Of a DNA stretch of 33,840 nt, positions 8,142-33,454 are shown piece by piece. Where the stretch lies: contig JACRPZ010000021.1 in NCBI GenBank assembly GCA_016222905.1, forward strand, positions 1 through 33,840, read 5' to 3'. Every line of letters begins with the position of its first letter. The first letter of the stretch is position 1. The notes below the pieces were generated by a model. The model had not been told where the DNA came from and ran no database searches. It saw only the letters and a list, made by a program, of their open reading frames with translations. The position numbers were made by a program, and so were the translations under genes. Source of the stretch: Nitrospirota bacterium. GTDB taxonomy: Bacteria > Nitrospirota > Thermodesulfovibrionia > UBA6902.

Positions 8142-8153
8142 AAAAGCCTGTTT

Positions 8154-8224
8154 TGTCATACCCGCGAAAGCGGGTATCCAGAAACTTGTCAAAAAACTGG
8201 ATTCCCGTTTCCACGGGAATGACA
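8154..8224. repeat. Dispersed paired-hairpin repeat, copy 2
   Basis: TGTCATACCCGCGAAAGCGG opens the element, and GGATTCCCG with CACGGGAATGACA closes it. The first hairpin is ACCCGC-GAAA-GCGGGT and the second ATTCCCGT/ACGGGAAT. It has the same architecture as the copy at 128-202. Translated on the minus strand it gives the well-known spurious peptide ending WIPAFAGMT. It could act as a bidirectional attenuator or mRNA-stabilising hairpin between the Host_attach and cytochrome genes. Confidence 0.8.
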
Positions 8225-27933: not shown

Positions 27934-28714
27934 CGAACTCCTCCCCGAGATATGCCTTTATCACAACCGGATCATTCCTCACCTCATCCGGAGCGCCTTC
28001 AGCTATCTTCTTTCCATAGTCCATGACAACAATGCGGTCGGATATGCTCATCACAAGCTTCATATCATGTTCAATAAGAAGTATGGATATATTTTCCCTG
28101 TCGCATATCCCCCTTATAAGATCATCAAGCTCCCGAGTCTCCTGCGGGTTCATGCCGGCTGCAGGCTCATCAAGCATCAGGATAAACGGTTCTGTTGCAA
28201 GCGCGCGCGCTATCTCAAGGCGTCTCTGCGCACCGTAAGGAAGGTTTTTGGCAAACTCATTAACGTATTCAGAGAGCCCTATCTGCTCAAGGATTTCGCG
28301 GCTCTTCCTCACCACCTCTTTCTCCTCCTGAACAGTTGACCTTCCCCTGAAGATCGCGCCTATGATCCGTGAATGAGTGCGGCAGTGGCGTCCTATCATG
28401 ACATTCTCAAGCACCGTCATATTAGGGAAGAGGCGTATGTTCTGAAAAGTCCTTGCAATGCCTTTTTTTGTAATGATATTCGGCAATAATCCATTGATCC
28501 TTTCCATTCCTCCTCCGGCATTAGAGATGTATATATCTCCTCCTGACGGTTCATATATCCCTGTTATGCAGTTAAATAATGTTGTCTTGCCAGCGCCGTT
28601 CGGTCCGATGACCGCGAGCACCTCACCCTCTCTTATCTCCAGATCAAGAGAATCCAGCGCGCGGAGCCCGCCGAAATCCATGCTCAGTTTGCTCACCTTA
28701 AGAAGAGGGTTCAT
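27926..28714 (-). CDS. livG: Branched-chain amino acid ABC transporter ATP-binding protein LivG
   Basis: A 262-residue ATPase. Walker A GPNGAGKTTLFN (38-49), then the long LivG-type insertion up to GIARTFQNIRLFPNMTVLENVMIG. The signature is degenerate, LPYGAQRRLEIARAL, as normal for LivG. Walker B LMLDEPAAGMNPQET, and the H-loop is in LLIEHDMKLVMSI. The ATG overlaps the livM stop by four bases (ATGA at 28711-28714), so translation is coupled. Confidence 0.93.
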   Translation of the reverse strand: MNPLLKVSKLSMDFGGLRALDSLDLEIREGEVLAVIGPNGAGKTTLFNCITGIYEPSGGDIYISNAGGGMERINGLLPNIITKKGIARTFQNIRLFPNMTVLENVMIGRHCRTHSRIIGAIFRGRSTVQEEKEVVRKSREILEQIGLSEYVNEFAKNLPYGAQRRLEIARALATEPFILMLDEPAAGMNPQETRELDDLIRGICDRENISILLIEHDMKLVMSISDRIVVMDYGKKIAEGAPDEVRNDPVVIKAYLGEEFAA

Positions 28715-29940
28715 TTATCAATCCCCCTTCCCTCTTTTACATTCTCAAATCTGTATATGCGCCGTGTCATGCTTATCATACCCTGCGGCCTGAATACCAT
28801 CATGATTATCAGCACCGCCCCGAAAATCAGCATCCTGTATTCCGAGAAGACACGGAGATGCTCCGGCAGAAGTATAAGTATGAACGCGCCCGCGATAACG
28901 CCGGGTATAGAGCCCATGCCTCCGAGCACAACTATAGAGAGGATTATTGCCGACTCTATAAATGTAAAGCTTGCGGGATTGATAAATGTCGTCCTTGCCG
29001 CAAAGACAACACCCATCATACCTGCCCATGTCGCGCCCAATGCAAACGCGGATAATTTTGTCCTTGTCTTGTCTATTCCCATGGCCTGGCACGCGATCTC
29101 ATCTTCCCTTAAGGCTTCCCACGCCCTTCCTATCCTTGAGTTCTGAAGCCTACTGACAACAAAGACCGTAAAGAGCGCGAGCGCTATCATGAGAAAATAG
29201 ATATAGATAGTAGCTCCCTTCAGAGGAAACTGCATGCCGAAGAAGGAAGGCCTTGCAATATTTGCGATGCCGCTCGGGCCAAAGGAGAATTCATTCCAGT
29301 TCTCAAGGATGAGCCTGATTATCTCACCGAAACCGAGAGTAACAATAGCGAGATAATCGCCCCGCAGACGGAGTACCGGAAATCCGAGGAGTATGCCGAA
29401 GAGAGCGCCCAGCAAAGCACCGACGGGAAGGACTGTCCAGAAGCCGAGGCCGAAGTGATGATTGAGCAAGGCATAAGAGTAAGCACCGACTGCATAGAAG
29501 GCAACGTATCCGAGATCAAGCAGACCCGCAAGTCCCACAACTATATTAAGCCCCAGGCCGAGTACCGCGTACATTAGCGCGGTCGTCATGATGTTGACCT
29601 GATAAGAGGAGAATAAAAAAGGGAATGAGAGAGAAATGACCGTAAGCGCAGAGAGAGCGGGTTTATACAGGCGCGGCTCGTTCATGAACCTTTGGAGAAA
29701 CGGTGCTGTATCGCTTTCACATGCTCCCGCATCTTTAAAGCATCTCTCCTTTTTCTTAATAAGGTAATGCCAGAGAAGTGAGAGGAGAAAGCTTCCTGCA
29801 CCGACAAGGAACATATTATGCCATCTCCACTCAACCGCCTTCTCAACAGGGTTGATATGGATCACCATGATTGGGAATGTCAGGAACATGAACCAGATAG
29901 CGGTGAGAAGAGACTTCTTTATTTTAGAGAAATTTAACAT
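28711..29940 (-). CDS. livM: Branched-chain amino acid ABC transporter permease LivM
   Basis: A 409-residue permease with about ten hydrophobic spans. The first 100 residues (two spans and a charged loop) form an extension like that of enteric LivM. The core holds YAVLGLGLNIVVGLAGLLDLG, RGDYLAIVTLGFGEI and the cytoplasmic EAA-type loop GRAWEALREDEIACQAMGID, each diagnostic for LivM. The nearest SD-like sequence (GAGGGGA, minus strand) is about 13 bases before the ATG and lies inside the left inverted repeat of the adjacent DUF559 cassette, so insertion of the cassette may have changed how this gene is translated. Confidence 0.93.
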   Translation of the reverse strand: MLNFSKIKKSLLTAIWFMFLTFPIMVIHINPVEKAVEWRWHNMFLVGAGSFLLSLLWHYLIKKKERCFKDAGACESDTAPFLQRFMNEPRLYKPALSALTVISLSFPFLFSSYQVNIMTTALMYAVLGLGLNIVVGLAGLLDLGYVAFYAVGAYSYALLNHHFGLGFWTVLPVGALLGALFGILLGFPVLRLRGDYLAIVTLGFGEIIRLILENWNEFSFGPSGIANIARPSFFGMQFPLKGATIYIYFLMIALALFTVFVVSRLQNSRIGRAWEALREDEIACQAMGIDKTRTKLSAFALGATWAGMMGVVFAARTTFINPASFTFIESAIILSIVVLGGMGSIPGVIAGAFILILLPEHLRVFSEYRMLIFGAVLIIMMVFRPQGMISMTRRIYRFENVKEGRGIDK

Positions 29941-29948
29941 TCAATTTA

Positions 29949-30385
29949 TATTTCCCCTCTTTAGCAAAGAGGGGTCAGGGGAGATTTTGCAATCCTAAAT
30001 TCTCCATTATCTTTTGAATTAAGCCCTCCATATTTTTTAAAGCTTCCATGTCAGAAAATCTTAAAACCCGCAAACCCATACTTCTCAGGCAGTCGTCTCT
30101 CCGGATGTCCTTTGCTTTTCCATCATCTGTATAATGTTGTCCTCCGTCAAGTTCAATAACCAGACTAGCCTTCGGGCAATAGAAATCAACAATGAATTCT
30201 CCAATAGGTTTTTGTCTGTTAAATTGATAACCGTTCAACTGCTTTCTCCTTATCTTTAACCAGAGTAATTTTTCTGCATCGGTCATTTCCTTCCTAAGCC
30301 GTCTGGAAAATCCCTTCAGAGTCTTGTTGTAACCGAGCATGTTTTAAAAATCCCCCCTCGCCCCCCTTTGCAAAAGTGGGGAATA
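29949..30385. mobile_element. DUF559 gene bounded by ~40-bp inverted repeats, inserted between livH and livM
   Basis: The left repeat (29949-29988) and the reverse complement of the right one (30347-30385) align over almost all their length: TATT(T)CCCC-CTTT-GCAAAG-GGGG-GGGG-GATTTT, about 80% identical by eye. The left repeat contains a perfect 9-base hairpin, CCCCTCTTT/AAAGAGGGG. The repeats enclose only the DUF559 gene; its stop codon lies inside the left repeat and its SD inside the right one. No clear target-site duplication is seen. It could be a mobile cassette or a gene captured between two REP-like repeats. Confidence 0.55.
29975..30340 (-). CDS. DUF559 (Vsr-like PD-(D/E)XK) endonuclease-domain protein
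   Basis: A 121-residue protein of the DUF559 family, related to very-short-patch repair endonuclease. RRLRKEMTDAEKLLWLKIR (13-31) is the family's N-terminal helix. The nuclease core is GYQFNRQKPIGEFIVDFYC then LVIELDGGQHY (acidic residues at about 48, 52, 63 and 65), followed by RDDCLRSMGLRVLRF and a C-terminal helix. The core residues look intact, so activity on DNA is plausible. It has no partner methyltransferase nearby and no relation to the transporter genes around it, with which it shares strand and probably transcript. Confidence 0.85.
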   Translation of the reverse strand: MLGYNKTLKGFSRRLRKEMTDAEKLLWLKIRRKQLNGYQFNRQKPIGEFIVDFYCPKASLVIELDGGQHYTDDGKAKDIRRDDCLRSMGLRVLRFSDMEALKNMEGLIQKIMENLGLQNLP

Positions 30386-30402: not shown

Positions 30403-31305
30403 TCAAACCTTATTCGCTTTTGACTTGCCGAGTAATCCTTCTGGCTTAAAGATCAGGATAAGCACAAGGAGCGCAAAGGCGAATACATCTTCATAATCGC
30501 TTGAGACGTATCCGGTTGCAAAGCTCTCTGTCCATCCAAGAATAAAACCGCCCAGCACCGCGCCCGGTATGCTCCCGATGCCTCCGAGCACCGCTGCTGT
30601 GAATGCCTTTATGCCCGCTATAAATCCGATAGAAAAATTAATCTGGCCTATATGGGACGCGATAAGTATCCCGCCAATGGCCGCAAGCGACGATCCGATA
30701 ATAAAGGTCATTGATATTATCCTGTTAACGTCAACACCTGAAAGAACGGCCATATCCCTGTCCTGCGCAGTCGCGCGCATCGCTATCCCGATCTTTGTGA
30801 ATTTGATAACAAGCGTCAGAATTATCATGACAACAGCCGTGGTCAATAAGATCATCAATTCCGTTGAACTGAAGATATGTTCATACTTCTTCATGAATTG
30901 AAATTCAGGTATCAGGTTCGGAAAGGGAAGGAAATCAGATGTCTGCGCAAGACGCACATAGTTCTGAAGAAAGATAGACATGCCTATGGCGCTTATAAGA
31001 GGAGAAAGCCGGGGCGCCTGACGAAGCGGTTTGTACGCTATCTTCTCGATGGTAAAACCATACGCGGATGAATATATGACAGCAACCAACGCCGCCAGAA
31101 TAAGTATAGCGATCTTGCTGAATCCGTAGATGGTGAGGACGCTTGCGATGATAAGCGCAGTGAACGCGCCGATCATGTATATCTCGCCATGGGCAAAATT
31201 TATTAGCCCGATAATGCCGTAGACCATGGTGTAGCCGAGAGCGATAAGCGCGTAAATACTTCCTCTCGTCAGCCCGCCAAGCAAAAGCCCGAAGAAATAC
31301 TCCAT
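30403..31305 (-). CDS. livH: Branched-chain amino acid ABC transporter permease LivH
   Basis: A 300-residue permease with about eight spans. GSIYALIALGYTMVYGIIGLINFAHGE near the N-terminus (here noted by IYALIALGYTMVYGI and NFAHGE), FQFMKKYEHIF, the cytoplasmic loop GIAMRATAQDRDMAVLSGVD and AAVLGGIGSIPGAVLGGF are LivH hallmarks. ATG at 31305 is preceded by AGAGG nine bases away; a GTG two codons earlier is possible. First gene of the transporter operon. The periplasmic binding protein (livJ/livK) that normally accompanies it is not in the window. Confidence 0.93.
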   Translation of the reverse strand: MEYFFGLLLGGLTRGSIYALIALGYTMVYGIIGLINFAHGEIYMIGAFTALIIASVLTIYGFSKIAILILAALVAVIYSSAYGFTIEKIAYKPLRQAPRLSPLISAIGMSIFLQNYVRLAQTSDFLPFPNLIPEFQFMKKYEHIFSSTELMILLTTAVVMIILTLVIKFTKIGIAMRATAQDRDMAVLSGVDVNRIISMTFIIGSSLAAIGGILIASHIGQINFSIGFIAGIKAFTAAVLGGIGSIPGAVLGGFILGWTESFATGYVSSDYEDVFAFALLVLILIFKPEGLLGKSKANKV

Positions 31306-31336
31306 AACCACATGCCTCTAAAAATTAATTTTCAGT

Positions 31337-31497: not shown

Positions 31498-31857
31498 ATG
31501 GATATGGATTTTACGGTAGAATTTTATGAGACGAGTATAGGAGTATCTCCCGTTCGTGATTTTCTGGACGAGTTGAAGGCCAGTGATCCTGACGATTTTG
31601 CATCGGTAGTCGCAGGTCTTGCAAAACTGCGAAACAGGCAGTATCACCGTGAACCCTTATGCAAGGCGCTTGGCGATGGACTCTTTGAACTGCGTCACGT
31701 GGGCAAGCTCAATACCCGCGTGCTCTGGTTTTTTGTAAAAAATTGCCGGATCATCGCTGTGCATGGCATCCGAAACAAAGGCCGGACTATTTCTGCACGA
31801 GACATTAAAACGGCAACAGACCGGATACTCGATTGGCGGAAAAGATTTGAACGATGA
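31498..31857 (+). CDS. Gp49/HigB-type toxin (RelE/ParE superfamily)
   Basis: A 119-residue protein of the phage-derived Gp49-like (DUF891) family: VEFYETSIGVSPVRDFLDEL at the start, then LRNRQYHREPLCKALGDGLFELR, VLWFFVKNCRIIAVHGIRNK and ARDIKTATDRILDWRKR. These match the RelE-like fold in order, with the conserved LFELR and the late basic helix. Family toxins are ribosome-dependent mRNA interferases. The start could be ATG 31498 or 31504; no clear SD. It overlaps the antitoxin gene by four bases. Toxin-first order is typical of higBA. Confidence 0.85.
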   Translation: MDMDFTVEFYETSIGVSPVRDFLDELKASDPDDFASVVAGLAKLRNRQYHREPLCKALGDGLFELRHVGKLNTRVLWFFVKNCRIIAVHGIRNKGRTISARDIKTATDRILDWRKRFER

Positions 31858-32216
31858 AAAAAACAAATTTTGACAGATACCTTGAAGATCAGATGAAGGA
31901 CCCGGAATTTACCGTCCGCTTTAAGCACGCAGGCGAGGCATGGGATGTTGCGCTGCAGATCGCGGCACTCCGTGAGCAGGCAGGGCTTTCACAGAAAGAC
32001 CTCGCAAAGATACTCAAGACCTCTCAACAGCAGGTCAGCCGGCTGGAGTCCCCAAACTACGAAGGACACTCCCTCAGCGCCCTGCGCCGTGTCGCCGAAG
32101 CCCTTCATGCCAAAGTCCGCGTCATATTCGAGCCGGAGAAAAAAAGGGCCGGGATGCGCGTAGCTGAATCTGGCGTAACATACTATCCTAAACGCTCCAA
32201 AGCCAAACAGACATAA
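31854..32216 (+). CDS. XRE-family antitoxin (HigA-like)
   Basis: A 120-residue DNA-binding antitoxin. Helix-turn-helix at about 38-75: ALREQAGLSQKDLAKILKTS then QQQVSRLES, followed by HSLSALRRVAEALHAKVRVIFEP. The N-terminal DRYLEDQMKDPEFTVRF is typical of antitoxins paired with Gp49 toxins. The lysine-rich tail (KRSKAKQT) is variable. It would neutralise the upstream toxin and repress the shared promoter, perhaps at the 31392-31418 motif. Confidence 0.87.
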   Translation: MKKTNFDRYLEDQMKDPEFTVRFKHAGEAWDVALQIAALREQAGLSQKDLAKILKTSQQQVSRLESPNYEGHSLSALRRVAEALHAKVRVIFEPEKKRAGMRVAESGVTYYPKRSKAKQT

Positions 32217-32332
32217 AGGCTGACTTCTATGAGCTGTCGTTCCCTTTATGCAGATTTTACGCATATAAATTGCCGAATTGTCCAACCTCTGAGCGGCCCG
32301 CATAATCATGCAGTTTAGCTATTACCACCCTT

Positions 32333-32360
32333 CCCGTCTTTTTTTTAGCCGGGGTATAAT
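32333..32360 (+). promoter_or_regulatory. Promoter-like motif upstream of the Vsr-like gene (second copy)
   Basis: CCGTC, eight Ts, AGCCGGGG and TATAAT (32355-32360), 14 bases before the ATG at 32375. It is close to the motif at 31392-31418. The rest of the 158-base gap after the antitoxin gene shows no gene or other structure I can support. Confidence 0.5.
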
Positions 32361-32374
32361 AGAATAAATCGTTA

Positions 32375-32671
32375 ATGGACAAACTGACGCAAGAACAAAG
32401 ACGCAAGAACATGCAAGCTGTGAAGAGTACTGGCTCTAAGATTGAGACGGCTCTGGCAAAAGCATTATTTGCTCGTGGACACAGATACAGGAAAAATGAC
32501 AAGACTGTTTTTGGTAAACCTGATCTGACTTTCAAAAAATATAAAATTGCGGTATTCGTTGATAGTGAGTTTTGGCACGGCAAGGATTGGGAGACACGAA
32601 AACACGAACACAAGAGCAATAAAGAATTCTGGTACAATAACATTAAGAGGAAAATGAGTATTCAGAAGTGA
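32375..32671 (+). CDS. Truncated very-short-patch-repair (Vsr) endonuclease
   Basis: 98 residues. TQEQRRKNMQAVKSTGSKIE (5-24), ALFARGHRYRKND, FGKPDLTF with the catalytic aspartate, IAVFVDSEFWHG and KEFWYNNIKRKM are clear Vsr signatures. Vsr nicks at T:G mismatches formed by deamination of 5-methylcytosine and normally accompanies a C5 methyltransferase. Full-length family members continue for about 30-40 residues (ERDKEVN...WxVLRFW), but here the frame ends at SIQK. The HNH gene starts 18 bases later, so the missing end has been deleted rather than frame-shifted. Likely inactive. Confidence 0.75.
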   Translation: MDKLTQEQRRKNMQAVKSTGSKIETALAKALFARGHRYRKNDKTVFGKPDLTFKKYKIAVFVDSEFWHGKDWETRKHEHKSNKEFWYNNIKRKMSIQK

Positions 32672-32689
32672 GCGGAACGAAAAATTAAT

Positions 32690-33454
32690 ATGCCGATCGA
32701 TAAATGGACGCGAGAGCAGACAATAGTCGTATTTAATCTTTATTGTAAAATTCCATTTAATAGAGTTAGTTCTACTCATCCTGATATAGTGCGCTTTGCA
32801 AAAATTATTGGAAGAAGTGCCAACTCAGTAAAAATGAAAATTGGCAACTTCGGAAGTTTTGATCCTGAATTAAAAAAGCGAGGAATTGTTGGGTTAGGAA
32901 ATACAAGCAAGTTGGATGAAGATATTTGGAATGAGTTCAATAAAAACTGGGAAAAACTTGCTTATGAAAGCGAACTGCTGATCGCTAAATTCAGTAATAA
33001 GACAATTGAAGAAACTACACATATTGAAGCAACCGAATTACCAAAAGGAAAAGAACGAGAAGCAATCATCAAAGCAAGAGTAAATCAATATTTTTTCAGA
33101 AGTTCCATTCTGTCATCATATAATCAAAAATGTTGCATCACGGGATTAAGTATTTCTGATCTTTTGGTAGCAAGTCATATTATTCCTTGGTCCAAAGATA
33201 AAATAAACAGATTAAACCCTCATAATGGTTTATGCTTAAGTTCAATTCACGATAAAGCATTTGATAGAGGATTTTTAACTGTAACGCCAGAATACAAAAT
33301 TAGATTATCAAAATACCTTGATGATTTCAAAAAAGATGATGCAGTAACAGATTTATTTTTTAAATACAATAATCAATCTATCATTTTACCTGATAAATTT
33401 TTACCATCAGAAGAATTCTTAGATTATCATTATAACGAAATCTTTATAAAATAA
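32690..33454 (+). CDS. HNH endonuclease (restriction-type)
   Basis: A 254-residue protein. The N-terminal domain (DKWTREQTIVVFNLYCKIPF, GRSANSVKMKIGNF) is the helical module common to restriction-associated HNH proteins. Residues about 146-200 are the HNH nuclease: KCCITGLSI, then SHIIPW (H163), NPHNGLCLSSIHDKAFDRG (N179, H187). With the Vsr fragment just before it, it looks like the restriction half of a type II system, but no methyltransferase is in the window. Markedly AT-rich, suggesting horizontal transfer. The next small gene begins one base after its stop. Confidence 0.82.
   Translation: MPIDKWTREQTIVVFNLYCKIPFNRVSSTHPDIVRFAKIIGRSANSVKMKIGNFGSFDPELKKRGIVGLGNTSKLDEDIWNEFNKNWEKLAYESELLIAKFSNKTIEETTHIEATELPKGKEREAIIKARVNQYFFRSSILSSYNQKCCITGLSISDLLVASHIIPWSKDKINRLNPHNGLCLSSIHDKAFDRGFLTVTPEYKIRLSKYLDDFKKDDAVTDLFFKYNNQSIILPDKFLPSEEFLDYHYNEIFIK

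Follow-up and report, generated by a model that had tools for sequence, protein, structure and literature searches.

A DUF559 nuclease gene bracketed by inverted triplex-type repeats suggests a REPIN/RAYT-like partnership in many bacterial phyla

Introduction

Since 2000, catalogues of triplex-forming repeats have come to cover hundreds of bacterial genomes, and these repeats have been tied to genome instability; DUF559 is a very common protein family of unknown function. Among such repeats, the PIT/TM (BoxC) elements of E. coli follow the consensus CCCTCNCCCN3-6GGGNGAGGGN3GGGNGAGGG (TMECO), which forms a purine triplex in vitro as determined by CD and NMR; DMS footprints in vivo revealed no stable triplex at these elements (PMC4666352). 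E. coli K-12 carries 23 copies, including five inverted pairs that each consist of one type A and one type B element, TM loci are more rearranged between E. coli strains, and the PIT elements tested had neither promoter nor terminator activity (PMC4666352). The same survey, published in 2015, found no transposase or other mobility function near the repeats, and it names neither DUF559 nor YcjD nor any nuclease (PMC4666352).

The closest described partnership between short palindromic repeats and an enzyme is that of the REPINs and the RAYTs, the REP-associated tyrosine transposases (PMC3116915, PMC3733652). For REPs of the CGTC type, the transposase has been reported missing (PMC3733652).

NGO0050 (PDB 3hrl) is a solved DUF559 structure, deposited as a structural-genomics entry of unknown function. 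Vsr and VsrA belong to the same superfamily, and Caulobacter VsrA, which carries DUF559, triggers the SOS response in cells without the methyltransferase ScmA; its proposed role is that of a VSP (mismatch) repair enzyme, and no link to repeats was examined in that work (PMC12907096). Since VsrA is thereby linked to DNA damage signalling in one mutant background, DUF559 members can be active in vivo. In addition, an HMM comparison placed the E. coli DUF559 protein YcjD near Vsr (PMC1189080).

Results

A nuclease gene and two repeats form a compact cassette between livH and livM

The window, that is the whole stretch of 33,840 bases analysed here, contains a DUF559 gene between livH- and livM-like permease genes lying on the same strand (Table 1). 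The gene starts with ATG, comprises 366 bases including the stop codon, and encodes a protein matching PF04480 (DUF559) in a Pfam scan with an E-value of 2.7e-36. The repeats on its two sides share one layout, in which a pyrimidine arm (Y-arm), a loop, a purine arm (R-arm) and a spacer of 1-6 nt are followed by a G-rich third tract at the tail: repeat A reads CCCCTCTTT-AGC-AAAGAGGGG-TCA-GGGGAGATTT and repeat B reads CCCCACTTT-TGC-AAAGGGGGG-CGA-GGGGGGATTT. Stop codon and SD-like tract of the gene are supplied by the repeats, and unit and gene are tightly fused. No transposase is encoded in the cassette, the sole gene of which is the DUF559 gene.

Table 1. Coordinates of the cassette and its neighbours in the window
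Feature	Position	Strand	Remarks
DUF559 nuclease gene	29975..30340	-	121 aa; Pfam, homologue alignment, fold 3hrl and 3r3p
Repeat A	29954..29987	+	tail toward gene
Repeat A, Y-arm	29954-29962		
Repeat A, loop	29963-29965		
Repeat A, R-arm	29966-29974		
Repeat A, spacer	29975-29977		
Repeat A, third tract	29978-29987		
Repeat B	30348..30381	-	read from 30381 down; tail toward gene
Repeat B, Y-arm	30381-30373		
Repeat B, loop	30372-30370		
Repeat B, R-arm	30369-30361		
Repeat B, spacer	30360-30358		
Repeat B, third tract	30348..30357	-	G-rich, SD-like; ends 7 nt before ATG
Stop codon TGA of nuclease gene	29975..29977	-	spacer of repeat A
livM-like permease gene	28711..29940	-	downstream of nuclease gene
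livH-like permease gene	30403..31311	-	upstream of nuclease gene

Coordinates and sequence thus confirm the initial annotation of this locus, which had described a DUF559 gene between inverted repeats of ~40 bp that give it its stop codon and SD, and ORFs and Pfam agree with its account of a nuclease with inverted REP-like ends and no transposase. Its view of the ends as a REP-type repeat pair holds in so far as they are REP-like; they appear to be of the PIT/TM triplex type with a third strand, not plain hairpins, and the gene sits between tails, not within the head-to-head doublet that solo copies form (see below).

The core repeat pattern has exactly two matches in the window, where 0 are expected from 100 shuffles, and the hairpin part of the two repeats folds with z-scores of -3.6 and -2.2. 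The pair was missed by a general repeat finder at default settings because the copies are imperfect. A chance origin of the pairing was ruled out by the shuffles together with the controls described below.

DUF559 genes and inward-facing repeats recur together in many bacterial phyla

DUF559 genes were collected by protein similarity alone from 46 named genomes, from relatives and from plasmid records, further copies being taken from 23 of the 46 named genomes, and a repeat was sought within 150 bp of the domain in a test set of 126 distinct short DUF559 ORFs. Such a repeat was found for 106/126 ORFs, with repeats on both sides and tails inward for 52/126, as compared to 52/2101 control positions at the same loci (0/2101 on both sides) and 6/98 other ORFs (0/98 on both sides). 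A repeat-blind test, in which one flank was locally aligned with the reverse complement of the other, yielded a score of at least 32 at 36/69 DUF559 loci versus 4/2832 control positions.

The tails pointed toward the gene rather than away from it both upstream (71 versus 29) and downstream (76 versus 24), an orientation that argues for a gene placed between two units and not within a single one. This arrangement takes the form of one unit per side in the window, of two composite repeats in the relative G009, and of doublets on each side in S. meliloti.

Hosts include Nitrospirota-like relatives, Desulfobacca, Chloroflexota, Aminicenantes, Bacteroidota, Planctomycetota (Scalindua), Calditrichota, cyanobacteria and Alphaproteobacteria; the pairing of DUF559 and repeat therefore recurs in many bacterial phyla. 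The repeats end in mirrored G tracts with GATTT, GATGT, TGGGT, TGTGT, GTTA and others. The Alphaproteobacteria had raised the idea of CGTC REPs as the DUF559 partner, which was rejected since the flanks there are G-tract repeats and not CGTC.

On pSymB of S. meliloti Ak57 (L179, 1350-2090), a DUF559 gene lies between whole inverted doublets of ~130 bases on both sides, which presumably resemble rhizobial RIME1 elements. Double repeats of this type occur in many copies on rhizobial replicons, and a search of E. coli with the rhizobial repeat gave no match.

The third tract mirrors the purine arm

The third tract is a mirror image of the hairpin purine arm, in which G is answered by G and A by A or T. 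Across 139 distinct arm/tract pairs, this mirror register holds for 88% of A and 92% of G positions, compared to 63% and 81% (sd 2 and 1) after permuting the third tracts among arms; with one pair per distinct arm, the values are 88% and 95% versus 63% and 82%. A direct copy of the arm was rejected as an explanation of the third tract, the direct register fitting only 24% (A) and 62% (G). In an antiparallel purine-motif triplex, the base triples are G.G:C, A.A:T and T.A:T, and the mirror rule reads as the code of a fold-back purine (intrastrand) triplex.

In nine units (L217, L175, L215, L183, L151, L103, L074, L231 and L174), a hairpin takes the place of the spacer that otherwise joins arm and tract; the hairpin sequences are unrelated, and not even the two ends of a single cassette agree in them. 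The mirror relation is kept across these hairpins, as it should be if arm and tract come together in the folded structure.

Judged by their sequence, the repeats are the published PIT/TM (BoxC) intrastrand-triplex repeats, with which they share Y-arm, R-arm and second purine tract. The triplex of the window repeats is predicted from the sequence code, in vitro folding being known for TMECO (PMC4666352). As in PIT/TM elements, inverted pairs combine an A type with a B type; going beyond the E. coli consensus, many repeat types are found here, including those with hairpin spacers.

Repeat type and repeat dose follow the nuclease

The nearest inward repeat was sorted into eight types by its third tract and compared with a tree of 82 nuclease genes. 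Only 19 type changes are required on this tree, versus a mean of 55.5 for shuffled labels, with 0/200 shuffles as low. The GATGT-type is common to nucleases of Bacteroidota, Scalindua and Calditrichota, and the GATTT-type to those of the genome of the window, Desulfobacca, Dehalococcoidia and Aminicenantes. Nucleases at least 50% identical from different host groups share the type in 32% of pairs, compared to 6% of pairs for nucleases less than 40% identical from the same host group, near-copies contributing to these statistics, in which the contrast is host versus nuclease. In this contrast, repeat type tracks the nuclease rather than the host group.

Repeat numbers vary in the same sense. 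Repeats of the GGAGGGG..GGGGTGGGTT type number 11, 15, 9, 15, 1 and 43 in genomes with a cognate DUF559 gene (median 13, range 1-43), versus 0-4 elsewhere (p 1e-4), and the type of repeats A and B reaches a median of 36 across the five genomes that have a cognate nuclease, versus 5 elsewhere (p 0.006), all of these genome-wide counts including the flanking copies, two per DUF559 gene. Many genomes, for example G038 and G043, keep repeats without a full-length cognate nuclease. This was counted against the partnership proposed below; such persistence is what non-autonomous copies would show.

Solo repeats in the genome of the window form head-to-head doublets

The genome from which the window derives holds 36 exact copies of the repeat pattern and 41 similar places, and the reversed pattern has no copies there. 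Close pairs, found among 30 loci, are head-to-head with tails outward in 25/26 cases, making the head-to-head doublet the main form of solo copies, as in REPINs; a rare tail-to-tail pair lies at G000:C86:4961/4999. The four arm types AAAGAGGGG, AAAGGGGGG, AAAGGGGG and AAAGGGAGG go with the third tracts GGGGAGATTT, GGGGGGATTT, GGGGGATTT and GGAGGGATTT, in that order, with essentially no mixing. No Rfam family covers these repeats.

A second DUF559 gene of this genome (G000:C90:48010-48330) is flanked by a different repeat, CCCTCTCCC-TTGAG-GGGAGAGGG-TA-GGGAGAGGGTG, likewise inverted. A search for the unit elsewhere, as the initial annotation had proposed, recovered the repeats at ~40 other places of the genome and the exact repeat-DUF559-repeat unit only once. 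Repeats occurring everywhere without DUF559, which had been named there as speaking against a mobile unit, do exist in the literal sense; the association stands, and these copies have the appearance expected of non-autonomous ones.

A reverse-transcriptase gene of the same genome carries two in-frame composite repeat insertions that start with AAATCTCCCC and end with GGGGGGATTT; this ending speaks for the tails as the termini of the mobile unit. The ORF encodes 687 aa (L033:513-2576, G000:C53:7012-9075) and lies beside an apparent diversity-generating template. Its in-frame composite repeats read ISPNPSLPKRG... and SRGEYLEIPTLAKGGEGGFF, and in its homologues in G033 and G034 both of these spots are occupied by another repeat family (RHSRESGNPE...).

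Two further observations concern the window. A second REP-like family, TGTCATACCCGCGAAAGCGGGTATCCA / TGTCATTCCCGCG..CGGGAATCCA, occurs at 175-202 and 8153-8180 and also in the livH-livM spacer of the relative G019 (L122). The region 31498-33454, by livH, holds a Gp49-like (HigB/RelE type) gene paired with an HTH gene, as well as genes for an HNH endonuclease and for a true Vsr (PF03852, E 8e-32).

Site comparisons reveal presence/absence and replacement

The livH-livM spacer lacks the nuclease wherever it was readable in 12 relatives of the same family (LivH 83-90% identical; L128 cut short). These are empty sites of the kind sought in the initial annotation, in spacers too diverged to define a target or an exact border. 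In the relative G019, a bare palindrome, TATTCCCCTCTTTGCTAAAGAGGGGGAATA, lies just before the livM start, and its central 21 bases equal the hairpin of repeat A. It could be a target for insertion, what an insertion left behind, or a repeat of separate origin.

Upstream of livH in G009 (L245, G009:C56:206500-209200), another DUF559 gene lies between near-identical composite repeats in direct orientation, of three palindromes each, and its congener G024 has no DUF559 gene there, only a spacer of ~65 bases. No clean border with target duplication was found at livH-livM, for G009 versus G024, Shinella versus S. meliloti or S. meliloti versus S. medicae, at E. coli ypfG-tkt or in the reverse-transcriptase gene, and all these comparisons reveal presence/absence or replacement.

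At ypfG-tkt, E. coli strains are polymorphic for a TM-type unit, and the ycjD locus is found in 3362/5426 complete E. coli genomes. Some copies look settled, since ycjD in E. coli and a copy in Azospirillum stay put over strains or species. DUF559 genes are patchily distributed, with several copies per genome, and truncated or frameshifted DUF559 fragments are numerous (G037:C33, G004, G016, G041 and G013); these fragments suggest that gain and decay of DUF559 are frequent.

The protein is predicted to be a PD-(D/E)XK/EDxHD-type nuclease

The structure predicted for the window protein (pLDDT 89) has NGO0050 (3hrl) as its best fold match (fold E 8.5e-7, sequence E 7e-32). The catalytic domain of the homing endonuclease I-Bth0305I (3r3p) matches with a Foldseek probability of 1.00 and a sequence E-value of 9e-5, a match consistent with the homing-like movement considered in the initial annotation. 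Across 35 homologues, residues E23, D52, H69 and D78 do not vary, and they fit the EDxHD motif by their order; the DUF559 fold is thus predicted to be of the PD-(D/E)XK/EDxHD type.

Vsr (1vsr) is a weak fold match (E 0.13), the Vsr profile PF03852 does not match the protein in the Pfam scan, which returned only DUF559 and a sub-threshold MTES_1575, and comparing profiles with the Vsr gene that the window itself contains gave nothing. PADLOC reported no defence system and only weak partial matches to nuclease domains.

Discussion

Linkage, inward orientation of the tails, mirror code, agreement of repeat type with nuclease clade, dose, doublets and empty sites are best explained by a REPIN/RAYT-like partnership of DUF559 nucleases with REP-like triplex repeats of their own, a reading to which we assign a probability of roughly 0.6. 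That nuclease and repeat are genetic partners is in itself very likely, the nuclease probably acts on the folded repeat, and the chances that this action spreads the repeats appear to be even. According to the partnership reading, the second purine tract would turn back and join the hairpin as its third strand once the DNA strand is exposed during replication or repair, and the nuclease would recognise the repeat in this folded state and cleave or nick at or beside its tail. Repair of the break, or strand transfer, would then copy repeat doublets to new places, occasionally taking along a nuclease gene that lies between two doublets. Against this reading stand the in vivo footprints without a stable triplex (PMC4666352), the copies that look settled, such as ycjD, and the mismatch-repair role proposed for the Caulobacter DUF559 protein (PMC12907096). 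A more general proposal, which we advance tentatively and at slightly less than even odds, is that DUF559 proteins might be the dedicated mobilising enzymes of bacterial PIT/TM repeats, the ends of which would be recognised as fold-back triple helices, with ycjD and the BoxC/TMECO copies as the E. coli case.

A different history would be that of a free-standing homing endonuclease that cuts PIT/TM repeats, repair converting a bare site to repeat-gene-repeat, so that the gene would be the selfish unit and the repeats landing sites spread by other means. The nearest characterised fold, that of the EDxHD enzyme I-Bth0305I, is consistent with it, as are the patchy, multicopy distribution of DUF559 and the bare G019 hairpin at the livH-livM spot with its 21 bases in common with repeat A. 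However, insertion into the usual head-to-head doublet would point the tails away from the gene, which they face (71/29 and 76/24), and only rare tail-to-tail pairs such as the one on G000:C86 would fit; moreover, homing alone leaves the match of repeat type and nuclease clade unexplained. On the basis of tail orientation we favour the REPIN/RAYT-like partnership and consider homing into the repeat an unlikely, if live, rival.

We hold it to be quite improbable that the protein is instead a Vsr-like mismatch or structure nuclease that removes folded repeats where forks stall, is kept by repeat-carrying cells, and lies beside repeats because these serve in autoregulation or as transcription ends. 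The proposed VSP repair role of VsrA and its SOS phenotype without ScmA, the proximity of YcjD to Vsr by HMM comparison and the instability of TM loci in E. coli argue for such a role, which does not predict inverted cognate copies at about half of the genes or clade-specific repeat types crossing host phyla, and which is also at odds with the missing Vsr Pfam match and the weak fold match to 1vsr. Finally, the repeats could be MITE-like ends moved by an unlinked transposase and having terminator or SD activity, between which DUF559 was caught as cargo. They do provide a stop codon and an SD-like tract in the window, and the nuclease activity of DUF559 is itself inferred, but a single gene family would have to be caught repeatedly in many phyla (0/98 for other ORFs) with a matched repeat type, and the tested PIT elements had no promoter or terminator activity and no transposase nearby (PMC4666352). 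Family specificity refutes the simple form of this explanation, which we regard as very improbable overall.

Compared with REPIN-RAYT, the likeness lies in short palindromic repeats of many copies, solo copies that are inverted doublets, and a small enzyme gene, single-copy per type, that is flanked by cognate repeats of a type matched to its clade. Unlike in REPIN-RAYT, the enzyme is a PD-(D/E)XK/EDxHD-type nuclease by prediction and not a HUH Y1 transposase, and the repeat ends in a mirrored G-rich third tract and not in GTAG or CGTC. Since enzyme and tag differ, the system would be an analogue of REPIN-RAYT and not a member. With I-Bth0305I (PMC3943268), the DUF559 protein shares the predicted catalytic fold, the E, D, H and D residues and a patchy, selfish-looking distribution; it differs in being a stand-alone single domain without added DNA-binding modules, encoded outside any intron or intein and bracketed by repeats.

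Repeats and nuclease family have each been known singly, and on the literature searched, in which no other paper joins DUF559 and PIT/TM and outside of which subscription journals mostly lay, we rate their pairing and the structure of the ends as new in kind. A matched nuclease in the same genetic unit offers a concrete candidate for how triplex repeats spread; as the enzyme that these orphan repeats, widespread as they are, have been missing, DUF559 is a strong candidate. If this is true, it would constitute a second, unrelated solution to the REP-plus-enzyme partnership, assign a function to the DUF559 family, make DNA triple helices the recognised ends of a mobile element, and define a class of miniature mobile DNA, unrelated to RAYTs, in many phyla.

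The question is testable in E. coli K-12 through its DUF559 gene ycjD, which lies between sapF and fabI and has an exact match to the TMECO consensus 168 bases downstream. As a separate observation on this locus, the spacer downstream of ycjD contains a partial duplicate of the gene's 3' end along with degenerate copies of the repeat (L186:2290-3110, K-12).
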